This document shows, piece by piece, positions 12,862-34,896 of a stretch of 38,817 nucleotides of DNA. The stretch lies in the IMG/VR virus record IMGVR_UViG_3300044981_000086, positions 1 to 38,817 of that record. One strand, 5' to 3'. A program made the position numbers and the translations under genes. This stretch comes from a virus. Numbering within the stretch: the stretch's first letter is position 1; every line of letters starts with the position of its first letter. Below the pieces are notes generated by a model. The model ran no database searches. It saw only the letters and a list, made by a program, of their open reading frames with translations, and was not told the DNA's origin.

Positions 12862-14895
12862 TTAAGCTGACAAACTAACGTACATATTGTAACCAGGAGC
12901 GCTATTAATAACGTTTCCATAGTATGCAATACGAATTTCTAGAGCATCTGCATTACCTACGCGCAAGCCCTCGAGACCTTCCATACCATAGGTAAGGATG
13001 TGAGGAGCTTTGCCCAGGGTACGGAGCTTCCAGGTATCGGTCGTAAGGCACCATGCCGTTTGAGGCTGACATGATCTATCGGCCAATACAGGGATTTTCC
13101 CATAAGCAGAATGGAAATGAATAGCTTCGAAAGCCACTTCCACTTCATCATGCTCCAATTGAACGTACTGGACTTTAGCACCAAGCTCGTTAACCAGTGT
13201 TGAGTAACTGACGAAATCGATAACGATTAAATCAAAGCTAGCTCCTTCACGGTTTCCGAAAGCAAGAGCACTTGTAATGCCTTGTTCAATTGTGTAAGCA
13301 GAAGCGTTGTAGCGAAGTCCAGCTAAACGAGTAGGATCTGCAGAGCGATTAACTCCCCAGAAATTATCGTTTGAAGGAGGATCAACCACAGGCACCCATG
13401 CCGCCATACCAGAGAGACCTAACATACCAGCAATAGTTGTAGATCCACCGAGACCAATATCTCCCAAAACTTGGAGATAATCATTTGCACCCCACGAACT
13501 TCCAGGAGCACCTTGCACCACAGTACCTACAAGAACACCAGTTCCACGGTTAACAGATGTCAATTGAATAGCATCGATTGTTCCGGGAGTGTTTTGAAGA
13601 GCGGCACCACCATCAGTAGCTGTAGCTTGAAGGGTCATACCAACTTCAAATTGAACTACGTTTTGGCTGTTAGACAAAGTCAAAGTCAATTGAGAGCCAG
13701 TGAGACTTACACCAGCGCTTGAGATTTGACCACGGCTTGCAGTTCCACCGTAGAACAATTCAAAAGCCATGTTGTTTGAAAGGTTTCTAAAACCATTATC
13801 CATGGTCCTAGAAGCTTCATCAACAAAAGCTCCTGCGTTGGACTTAGTTTGTTCCATCAATAAGTTAGTGATGGTTACTAATTGGTAATCTTGTACTGCA
13901 TAAACGAAGTACGAAATTACATCACTTGCAGTTTGCTGATTTTGAGCATTAGCAAATGTGTGACTACGGCCTTGAGGATTGCCGTATTCCAAAGGAACTG
14001 GAATGTACTTCCCTGCGACAGGTTGTTACCGTAAGGGCTTTTTATCCCCTACTTCTGATATTTTCTTATGTATTCGAGTAGGCTTAGAATGAACTCTTGG
14101 TTCTCTTCTAAAAGTCCTAAAGCCCGATTACATTTCATGCAAAGAACTCCGCGTGGTTTATTAGTTTTATGATCATGATCTAGAGCCATATTAACCTCTT
14201 GACCACGCCATATATTCTTCACGCTTCGTCTGCAGCCTCCACAAACACCACCCTGTTCTTTTAACTTGGCGTTGAAGTAGTTAATTCCTACTCCATATGC
14301 TTGCTTCAGCTTTGTATCCCTTATTTTTTCAGGATACTCGTTACGATATTTGGCGACTCTTTTAAGAGTCTTTTCCCTATCTCTTAGGTAAGTTTGCTTT
14401 CGCATTTCACTTACACACTTTCTACACCGCGCTTCTTTATGAAGAGCTTTGTAAAATTCAGAGAGGGCTTTCGTTTTACCGCAACGTTTGCACTCTTTCA
14501 TATCAGCTCGGCGTACATTTTCACCTCTGTACTGCTAGTGGTGTCGGGCACTCTTGGTAGCTTATATTCTAACACATAGTGTTAGTTTCATCTACTACGC
14601 TCTACGGTGATAAAGGCTTGTTATTTCCTTTATTTACCTCGGGATTGGCATTTCAGCTTCCCCCGATATTGCCCGATTTAAGATGGGCGCGCATTGTTCA
14701 CCCATCCGGGCTCTCGTTCTTAGGAATCATTGCAAGCCACATCAATGATTAGCGAGAGGCCCTTGAACCCCTGGCTATACTTTAAGGGTTCTTAGAATAA
14801 ACAATATTTTTCATGTAATCTTTGTCATCGACATATAACTCTTTAAGAGCCGCGATCTGATTACTAGAATTCGCGTATACTGGCGAAATAGCCAT
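12862..14895 (-). CDS. Major capsid protein, interrupted gene (three coding segments, 435 aa when joined)
   Basis: Coding segments are 14895-14785 (37 codons, ends YSKNP), 14739-14700 (WLAMIPKNESPDG plus one base) and 14018-12862. Joined, they make 1308 nt with no internal stop: ...NIVYSKNP/WLAMIPKNESPDG/FAGKYIPVPLEYGNPQGRS... This matches the HK97-like phage coat pattern KELYxDD...NPxLAMxPKxE...GKYxPVPxxYGNPQGRSxTFA. The rest continues with FANAQNQ, VVQFEVGMTLQATATDGGAA and an all-coding C-terminus. GAGGAT precedes the ATG, three bases after the scaffold-like gene. The two interruptions are a 45-nt insert (14784-14740) starting with TAA and a 681-nt group I intron (14699-14019). Without removal of both, only a 37-aa peptide would be made. 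A second copy of the N-arm lies at 19232-19489 and shows the uninterrupted NPFLSM order. Junction residues W38 and F51 are deduced, not observed. Confidence 0.85.
14019..14699 (-). ncRNA. Group I self-splicing intron (IA-like) in the coat gene
   Basis: On the minus strand the core is readable in order: P1 exon GATGGGT (14706-14700) pairs with guide GCCCATC (14688-14682), with U-G at the splice site; P3 CATCT (14685-14681) with AGATG (14593-14589); P4 CGGG (14665-14662) with CCCG (14643-14640), in a context like phage T4 td; P6 ATAAAGG with CCTTTAT (14633-14610); P7 GTAGT (14598-14594) with GCTAC (14561-14557); P8 CTAACAC-TAT-GTGTTAG (14585-14569). The 3' site ends in the required G (14019). 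Exon bases CGCA pair with TGCG (14693-14690) as P10. Joining restores frame as G-F-A-G. Guide P1 and P3 share CATC, so they must exchange or P1 must be shorter. The homing endonuclease gene lies behind P7. Confidence 0.85.
14049..14501 (-). CDS. Endonuclease VII-like HNH homing endonuclease inside the group I intron, 150 aa
   Basis: The N-terminus has a zinc-binding CKRCGKTK...CRKC pair. The C-terminal half has GGVCGGCRRS, then MALDHDHKTNKPRGVLCMKCNRALGLLEEN, the recombination endonuclease VII/HNH pattern with the catalytic DHDH and a second Cys pair. Such proteins cut the intron-less allele and spread the intron. The gene lies between P7/P9 and the 3' splice site. A seven-codon leader frame (MYAELI, 14518-14498), preceded by AGAGGTGA, ends in an ATGA overlap with this start, so translation may be coupled to it. 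Known family; activity inferred. Confidence 0.85.
   Translation of the reverse strand: MKECKRCGKTKALSEFYKALHKEARCRKCVSEMRKQTYLRDREKTLKRVAKYRNEYPEKIRDTKLKQAYGVGINYFNAKLKEQGGVCGGCRRSVKNIWRGQEVNMALDHDHKTNKPRGVLCMKCNRALGLLEENQEFILSLLEYIRKYQK
14740..14784 (-). other. 45-nt in-frame insert with complete group I splice guide but no core (candidate mini-intron)
   Basis: It begins TAA right after the Pro37 codon and ends ATG before TGG CTT GCA. Bases 14776-14765 (AGCCA then GGGGTTC) are complementary to both flanks: GGGGTTC to GAACCCT (14791-14785) with the single U-G exactly at the boundary (P1), and AGCCA to TGGCT just after it (P10). Its second half pairs with the next coding segment: AATCATTG (14750-14743) with CAATGATT (14732-14725), and GGGC(C)TCTCG with CGAGAGCCC, leaving the 3' boundary ATG/TGG in a 10-nt apical loop. 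The last base is G, as in group I introns. No P3-P8 core fits into 45 nt; the nearest core is 80-180 bases downstream. Excision is inferred from the coat frame, not observed. Confidence 0.7.
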
Positions 14896-33423: not shown

Positions 33424-33797
33424 AACGTAGTCAAAAATTGAAACACAGTTATAGTTCCTGCTCCAGATGATGGAGTCCATACAACCCTAAGCCATCTAAA
33501 CCCAGGATAATTACTTGGAGTTATGTAACAAATACCATTTGCTCCAGAGGCCACTGTAACAGAACTATTTGTTCCAGGAGCATTGATCCAATTAATAGGA
33601 GCGGGGGCGTTTTGACCACCTAAATATTCAGAGGTATCATTGCTACATTGAATCTGTAGAGTTCCAGAATTACTTGCACTTGAACTGACAATAAAGAAAG
33701 ACACTCCATAACCGAATTGAATGTTTATAGCGCTAGAATTCTGGGCACTAGTGGCACTTACTGCGTTAAGCAAAATATTATTAGCTGATCCGGCCAT
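33420..33797 (-). CDS. Small beta-sandwich structural protein, 125 aa
   Basis: Beta-rich with the ending FRWLRVVWTPSSGAGTITVF, which resembles the end of the 130-aa protein at 37787-38179 (FAWIRLVYNYTSGSGSLTVV). The two appear paralogous. GAGGAGAGAG precedes the ATG inside the end of the membrane polymerase gene. Likely a virion surface or fibre accessory protein. Confidence 0.6.
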   Translation of the reverse strand: MAGSANNILLNAVSATSAQNSSAINIQFGYGVSFFIVSSSASNSGTLQIQCSNDTSEYLGGQNAPAPINWINAPGTNSSVTVASGANGICYITPSNYPGFRWLRVVWTPSSGAGTITVFQFLTTF

Positions 33798-34896
33798 AGT
33801 CTCTCTCCTCTTCTGTGGTTATCTTAAAACACTCATACACTAAAGCACAGCCAAATAATTGCATAAAAAAGAGTCTTAATGGGAATTGGGTAAGACCCAT
33901 AAATCCATAAGCACAGACCATTGAAAAGAGCCATGGCCGATTAAAAGATTTCTTAAGCATAAATAGATACAGCATGACTAAAGAAACAAATCCAACAATG
34001 CCTTGCTCCCACAGGACTTGTAGCCAGTCATTATGAAGCCAAAAGAAAATGGGATAATGGGGATCAACTGGACCAGTGAAAGATAAGAATTGAATTCTTG
34101 GCCCTAATATAAAGAATGTTCCGGGACCTGCTCCAATATACCGGTTTAAGTGCTCCCACCAATAATGCATTTGCAATTTCCATTCATAAAACCTACCATC
34201 ACTCTCTAATAGCTTATCTTGTAAAAAGACCCACGCGATACCGGCGGCAACCGGAACAAGTAAAAGTGGTTTCAAAGACCTCTTCTTAGATAAATAATAA
34301 GCAATAGTTCCTACCCCTAAACAAGCCATAGCGGTGCTAGAATGGCCTAAATATATAGCCATAAATCCTAAAGTTAAAAAGATGAAATTAACTCCTTCTT
34401 CTTTCTTCTTTAAAGAAATAATGGCTGGTAGAATACAGGCTATAACCGATGAATCAACTGAGGGATGAACAAATAAATACCAGGCTGACTGAGATCCAAA
34501 TAAACAGGCTTTAGCGATCATAATAAGCGCATCTAAACCAAAGATCCAATAAAGAGCTGACATTAATTTATCTAAGTATTTTCTATCTAAAGAAATAAAG
34601 GGGATAGCAAATAAAAGTGTAGTCATAGTAGCGCCACAAATGCTAGAACCCCATTGCGCAGCTTCTATTCTTGTAATTCCTGTAAATAACCCATAAGGAA
34701 AGAAATACTGAAATAAACCCCAAAGTGAAGATATTAAGAAAAGAAGCGCTACAGACCAGTGATATTTCTTACAAAGACAATAAGACATGCCTGATAAAAT
34801 GGCTATAAAGCCTTCAAGCTGCTGCCAAACCCAATGATTATCGGCCGGATAAGGGCAGAAGCCTGCAATAAGAAGCAAGATAAAAATTACAATCAT
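33781..34896 (-). CDS. O-antigen polymerase/ligase-like membrane protein, 371 aa
   Basis: About ten hydrophobic helices are visible (for example IVIFILLLIAGFC, IAILSGMSYCLC, ALLFLISSLWGLF, LLLVPVAAGIAWVFL). A large periplasmic-type loop holds SDGRFYEWKLQMHYWWEHL, GAGPGTFFILGPR and WLHNDWLQVLWEQGIVGF, the Wzy/WaaL pattern (RxxxW...G.G.g.f....HN.yLq.l.E.GiiG). Such proteins polymerise or ligate O-antigen, and phage versions can change the host surface and block superinfection. It is embedded between fibre-type genes and overlaps both. Confidence 0.75.
   Translation of the reverse strand: MIVIFILLLIAGFCPYPADNHWVWQQLEGFIAILSGMSYCLCKKYHWSVALLFLISSLWGLFQYFFPYGLFTGITRIEAAQWGSSICGATMTTLLFAIPFISLDRKYLDKLMSALYWIFGLDALIMIAKACLFGSQSAWYLFVHPSVDSSVIACILPAIISLKKKEEGVNFIFLTLGFMAIYLGHSSTAMACLGVGTIAYYLSKKRSLKPLLLVPVAAGIAWVFLQDKLLESDGRFYEWKLQMHYWWEHLNRYIGAGPGTFFILGPRIQFLSFTGPVDPHYPIFFWLHNDWLQVLWEQGIVGFVSLVMLYLFMLKKSFNRPWLFSMVCAYGFMGLTQFPLRLFFMQLFGCALVYECFKITTEEERDYGRIS

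Follow-up and report, generated by a model that had tools for sequence, protein, structure and literature searches.

The window analysed here is a stretch of 38,817 nucleotides (nt) from an uncultured phage with a P22-type portal (IMG/VR record IMGVR_UViG_3300044981_000086), in which the coat protein gene on the minus strand is interrupted twice: by an insert of 45 nt (14740..14784) and by a group I-type intron of 681 nt (14019..14699, here called the main intron), which begins 40 coding bases further downstream. We consider it probable that the 45 nt form a natural guide-only mini-intron, which would be excised by the catalytic core of the complete intron downstream in the same transcript, an intron that lacks the pairing P2. 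The insert probably represents a new class of non-autonomous group I-type introns in phage capsid genes (30-63 nt, with P1, P10, a terminal omega-G and an exon-shared hairpin), removed by a neighbouring P2-less ribozyme that accepts P1 hairpins serially, so that one core would remove two or even three introns per mRNA.

The translated coat gene runs from exon 1 (14785..14895, MAISPVYANSSNQIAALKELYVDDKDYMKNIVYSKNP; supported by homology to intact coat proteins) through the 45-nt insert, a micro-exon of 40 nt (14700..14739, WLAMIPKNESPDG plus one nt) and the 681-nt intron to exon 3 (12862..14018), which opens with FAGKYIPVPLEYGNPQGRS and extends to the stop codon. The insert separates the codons for NP from those for WLAMIPK, starts with TAA, has G14740 as its final base and holds two in-frame stops; it lies between AAGAACCCT, ending at 14785, and TGGCTTGCAATG, starting at 14739, and itself reads TAAAGTATAGCCAGGGGTTCAAGGGCCTCTCGCTAATCATTGATG (14784-14740). 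Both inserts are cleanly removable, since uninterrupted relatives, which have neither of them, read NPWLAMIPKNESPDGFAGKYIPVPLEYGNPQGR. A comparison with relatives lacking the insert had been proposed in the original prediction, which was made from the sequence of the window alone, and the site is indeed continuous in L006 (AAGAACCCTTGGCTC) and likewise uninterrupted in L003, L007, L024, L027 and L041. At the same site the phages L178 and L203 carry a different mini-intron with an identical guide core.

The whole guide of the insert, AGCCA-GGGGTTC (14776-14765), is complementary to the joined flanks GAACCCT/TGGCT. Its internal guide sequence (IGS), GGGGTTC (14765..14771), is the 3' strand of a P1 helix whose 5' strand is GAACCCT, the last 7 nt of exon 1 (14791-14785), with G14771 opposite U14785 in a U.G pair at the 5' boundary; AGCCA (14772..14776) is the P10 guide, its partner being TGGCT in the 3' exon (14739-14735). 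A further part of the insert (14743..14762) pairs with the micro-exon in a structure that we call hairpin H, composed of helix 1 (14750-14743 with 14732-14725, 8 base pairs) and helix 2 (14762-14753 with 14716-14708, 9 base pairs and one bulge), and the 3' boundary sits in its 10-nt loop. The minimum-energy structure from RNAfold contains both helices, and its overall stability is ordinary (z -0.88). The original prediction had described these coordinates, the guide, the U.G pair, the terminal G and the hairpin, and all of them hold to the base. Its claim that the insert brings its own P1 and P10 guide is likewise borne out, as none of 500 dinucleotide shuffles of the insert reached the observed guide score and the same architecture is common to 33 distinct inserts; the insert is also core-less as claimed, 45 nt leaving no room for P3-P8.

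The main intron belongs to class A, and its core is similar (blastn) to introns of Bacillus, Clostridioides and Staphylococcus phages. Its P1 is formed by GATGGGT (14706-14700), located in the micro-exon beside the 3' strand of hairpin H, and GCCCATC (14688-14682), its P10 by the guide TGCG (14693-14690) and CGCA (14017-14014), and its catalytic core spans 14511..14676, all on the minus strand. P3 (14676-14671/14549-14544), P4 (14666-14662/14643-14639) and P8 (14543-14540/14525-14522) were read from the sequence and not by a tool, while P7 (14600-14596/14515-14511), here GCGTA/TACGC, covaries with GCATA/TATGC across introns. The intron thus has the P3, P4, P7 and P8 of a group I core, with covariation for P7 alone, and the class A core is group IA-like. 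Downstream of P7 it encodes an endonuclease VII-family (HNH) protein of 150 residues (14049..14501, minus strand; PF02945, E 4.6e-15; PHROG endonuclease VII). Since the main intron is complete and has a P1 and a P10 of its own, and the insert adds no core to it, the pair is not a split, trans-splicing group I intron.

Relatives of the coat protein were collected from IMG/VR and each gene was spliced-aligned to intact coat proteins; none was found among the 50,697 phage records of INPHARED or in the GTDB genomes searched. The sample comprises 128 distinct coat sequences, some of them near-duplicates, of which about 86 are without a real insert, 13 contain full introns only and 24 combine a full intron with one or more mini-introns of 30-59 nt. 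With further loci the total rises to 33 distinct mini-introns, 30-63 nt in length and distributed over about nine positions of the coat protein (residues about 22, 28, 30-32, 37, 46-48, 51-53 and 414), and three genes (L016, L092/L094 and L187) have two in series. Lengths modulo 3 are 0, 1 and 2 in 14, 10 and 9 of the 33, which makes simple read-through impossible. Where it could be measured from the synonymous rate (dS), the ratio of nonsynonymous to synonymous substitution (dN/dS) in mini-bearing coat genes is 0.03-0.10, i.e. they are under strong purifying selection, from which we conclude that the coat protein is made. As the window also lacks another full-length copy of the coat gene, there must be a way past the inserts. 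A truncated, coat-like fragment does occur in the window at 19489-19232 (minus strand), where the C-terminal end of an 85-residue open reading frame (ORF) repeats the N-terminus of the coat protein in diverged form (ALAYANRKTSLEILKELYSDDAFVLKGLVYRNNPFLSMM; identity about 50%, E 3e-7) and abuts a tRNA-Asn gene (19269-19194).

A U before the insert and a G as its last base are found in 33 of 33 mini-introns, although boundaries were picked among 1-7 protein-equivalent placements with U and G preferred; those with a single possible placement (L076, L087, L141 and L198@414) follow the rule as well. Twenty-five finish in TG, which is also the usual end of the full introns. Every mini-intron contains a contiguous stretch complementary to its joined flanks, the P10 part first and the P1 part after it, as in group I introns. 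Against dinucleotide shuffles, the guide scores of 26 distinct mini-introns have a mean z of 4.8 and a Stouffer z of 24.6, a combined value that overstates independence, as the inserts are related to each other. These 26 have 17 distinct guide sequences, in which 198 of 204 guide-flank cells form standard pairs, and swapping guides among mini-introns lowers pairing to 50% (maximum 71%). At the 5' boundary a U.G pair is constant (17 of 17), whereas all other positions vary freely. Pairs were counted directly, MAFFT having misaligned the short concatenated guides. The mini-introns thus possess P1 with its U.G pair, P10 and a terminal omega-G, but 30-63 nt offer no room for a P3-P8 catalytic core. 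Because this defining core is absent we do not file them as group I introns; their architecture is that of a group I splicing substrate. Short gaps in the alignments of L112@210, L142, L173, L206@213/235 and L189 were taken as length variation of the coat protein rather than as mini-introns, and an exact-DNA search of IMG/VR with the guide region returned one unrelated chance hit (L082).

Pairing of the 3' part of the insert with the downstream exon, which leaves the G|exon boundary in a loop, is likewise usual (Stouffer z 10.6 over 26 mini-introns, a value inflated by their relatedness as well) and is individually strong in 13 of the 26. At the sites of residues 46 and 48, differences in the exon strand are mostly synonymous third positions (GCA/GCG, GGA/GGC/GGT, AAA/AAG) for which the insert compensates; 13 cells have changed on both sides, and covariation is 0.341, whereas shuffled controls give 0.144 and slid ones 0.136 at most. 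Hairpin H lies directly after the guide, roughly at the position of P2, and may replace it.

The distribution of the mini-introns is tied to that of full introns. Of the 37 distinct coat genes that have full introns, 24 contain mini-introns, as against none of the about 86 that have no full intron (Fisher p 1.7e-16, counts entered by hand from the spliced-alignment results). Every mini-intron precedes a full group I-type intron of the gene that holds it, as a rule with 21-111 coding nt between them; none was found past the last core of a coat gene, nor in any coat gene free of introns. Moreover, the introns immediately downstream of a mini-intron are P2-less in 24 of 25 cases, compared with 3 of 15 solitary ones (p 9.5e-7), and P1 is mostly 7-9 base pairs in P2-less introns as against 4-6 in P2-containing ones. 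Class B introns, which measure about 200 nt and have no ORF, are also P2-less and are the partners of mini-introns in L016, L076, L178 and L198@424. A single mini site can be combined with different main introns, and a single main-intron site (residues 55-57) with mini-introns at 30, 31, 32, 46 or 48; since the sites combine so variously, recognition looks generic, as for a docked P1. The original proposal that the core of the downstream intron serves two guides and excises both inserts is supported, the comparative data being consistent with every part of it.

In this lineage the coat genes accumulate introns (hot spots in L187, L171, L116, L016 and L094), which are of at least three core types; L187 has six inserts in one gene, namely two mini-introns and introns at residues 61, 90, 322 and 407. 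Introns at residue 14 (L068, L094 and L132) have an ORF starting near their 5' end that appears GIY-YIG-like by eye. At residue 31 of L107 there is a P2-less full intron with no upstream mini-intron found, so either such introns work alone or a mini-intron was missed. The class A intron of L150 (residue 56) has P1 and P2 and, between P2 and P3, an apparent former P1/IGS segment (TGTATTTGCCAGCG); it looks as if a P2-less intron had gained a new P1-P2.

Mini-introns also occur in other capsid families. A scan of 122 class A cores gave 19 candidate rows, compared with one in reversed controls, and outside the present coat family only doubtful hits. Among 139 class B cores, 14 had upstream candidates; reversed controls gave 3, and the downstream side gave 2, one of which itself lies upstream of another core. 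Six further mini-introns were judged real, three in an N4-gp56-like capsid gene (L337, L390 and L409) and three in a P22-gp5-like coat gene (L363, L365 and L372). Both names are our reading of the proteins, except that the relatives MW202674 and MW202520 of L363 carry the annotation P22 coat protein. Without its mini-intron, L363 reads FAVVG-GKIGNTVNVR, as an intact relative does, and hairpin H is found in L337 (GTTTATCTG/CAGATAAAC), L390 (TTGATTCTG/CAGAATCAA) and L409 (TTCTTGCAG/CTGCAAGAG) as well. The candidates in L225, L235, L305, L371, L382 and L348 lacked confirmation by intact relatives and count as chance hits. No isolate with a mini-intron was found: the P22-type coat gene of MW202674 has a class B intron with no mini-intron seen, and the same holds for the ribonucleotide reductase gene of Roseobacter phage CRP-118 (L423, OR420741), whose class B intron (about 200 nt) is unannotated. 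Coming from an isolated phage, the CRP-118 intron is a possible laboratory model for the class B core.

Excision could proceed as follows. The mini-intron P1 (5' exon and internal guide) and the P10 guide would define both splice sites, and the loop of hairpin H, built from insert and micro-exon, would present omega-G|exon, the 3' splice site. With this P1 docked in the downstream core, a guanosine cofactor would attack at U14785|U14784; G14740 would then replace the guanosine, P10 would form, the coat exons would be joined and the 45 nt released. Finally, the main intron's own P1 would dock and the main intron would splice itself out. The predicted junction after removal of the mini-intron is AAGAACCCT joined to TGGCTTGCA, with the product NPWLAMIPK.

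Several observations weigh against this reading. Excision at the RNA level, the use of the adjacent core in cis and the order of events are all deduced from sequence and comparison, and the preference for U and G in placing boundaries and the relatedness of the inserts, both noted above, count on the same side. Rfam group I models match neither the window nor L045 and L076, and their failure with a related ORF-less intron and a class B intron makes it probable that they are insensitive here. Hairpin H is weak or absent at the site of residues 30-32. By score, three of the solitary class A introns lack P2 as well; one of them has mini-introns further upstream, and another has a poorly located 5' splice site. 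In L141 the mini-intron lies 303 nt upstream of a P2-containing intron, and the partner of L198@46 is also a P2-containing intron, with a P2-less class B core further downstream in both cases. Strict adjacency of mini-intron and core is therefore not absolute, and a core further downstream may sometimes serve.

These two genes also speak for group I chemistry with the core acting in trans, be it a free excised intron, a more distant intron or an intron helped by a phage or host protein. Any compatible core might serve an insert that has its own guide, and engineered group I ribozymes do remove inserts in trans (PMC4094466, PMC6155759); we nevertheless regard this version as unlikely, because mini-introns always precede a full intron of the same gene, usually at short range, and are seen neither past the last core nor in intron-free coat genes. 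A different use of group I cores, their known ability to join distant splice sites (PMC11878797, PMC3073962), could lead to exon skipping as in phages Twort and SIOphi, the mini-intron and micro-exon being removed along with the main intron. This is very improbable: the micro-exon residues (WLAMIPKNESPDG) are conserved in all intact relatives, loss of the 40 nt would shift the frame, and the mini-intron owns a guide to the start of the micro-exon.

A ribosome might instead bypass an insert kept in the mRNA, as in T4 gene 60, whose gap of 50 nt is close in size (PMC5009743), and a stop codon, TAA, does directly follow the last translated codon, CCT. However, gene 60 ribosomes land on a matched codon (PMC5009743), and take-off and landing triplets match in none of the 33 mini-introns, in agreement with the failure to see a landing codon in the original prediction. 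The inserts also often split codons, and bypassing would have no use for the guide, the U.G pair, the terminal G or the link with an intron downstream, which leaves this explanation very little weight. A further reading, that the coat gene is broken and its insert an artefact of assembly or what is left of a dead full intron, is already contradicted, and we attach next to no probability to it: 33 distinct inserts come from independent metagenomes, their guides co-vary with exon changes, and purifying selection acts on a coat gene of which the window has no other full-length copy. What speaks for a remnant is that full introns share some mini positions (residues 31 and 51-53); for the same reason an origin of mini-introns by deletion is plausible.

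The proposed excision by a P2-less core of the same transcript has close parallels in trans excision-splicing by a Pneumocystis group I ribozyme and in the spliceozymes engineered from the Tetrahymena group I ribozyme (PMC6155759, PMC4094466), where an insert that has no core is cut out of an mRNA by a group I core, P1 defining the 5' and base pairing the 3' splice site. The mini-intron architecture fits that of their substrates. Those systems are engineered and have the guide on the ribozyme, whereas here the guide lies inside a recurrent insert and the candidate core in a neighbouring natural intron of the same transcript. The phage group I introns of T4 td, Twort and Bastillevirinae (PMC3984707, PMC11878797), to whose type the main introns belong, share with mini-introns the P1 with U.G, P10 and terminal G; unlike them, mini-introns are 30-63 nt long without any P3-P8 core. 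In another known system a group I core can use the splice sites of another intron of the same gene, but only complete introns are involved. Group III introns of Euglena, degenerate group II introns of about 90-120 nt (PMC4424553), are similarly shrunken, have no catalytic domain and are thought to depend on machinery elsewhere; they are longer, however, and of group II lineage with an unknown helper, while mini-introns have group I-type guides and a visible candidate core adjacent. The gene 60 gap (PMC5009743) is likewise a short, non-coding, stop-containing insert in a phage gene, but mini-introns differ from it in their splice-guide architecture, their link to a downstream intron and the lack of a matched landing codon. 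We found no natural guide-only group I-type intron in the open-access literature; subscription papers, such as that of Foley et al. (cited in PMC11878797) on Streptococcus thermophilus phages with deletion derivatives of a group I intron, were mostly outside the scope of the search.

Elsewhere in the window, an ORF at 33781-34896 (minus strand) has a weak match to O-antigen ligase (Wzy_C; E 4e-4, under the curated cut-off).

If the proposed excision is true, core-less introns would be removed by the ribozyme of another intron on the same mRNA, a natural counterpart of the engineered spliceozymes and a step along the route by which a common splicing machinery is proposed to have arisen from self-splicing introns. 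It would make testable how one core processes several introns, how non-autonomous introns originate and why phage capsid genes collect mini-introns. Finally, many capsid genes in metagenomes would have been mis-annotated as broken.
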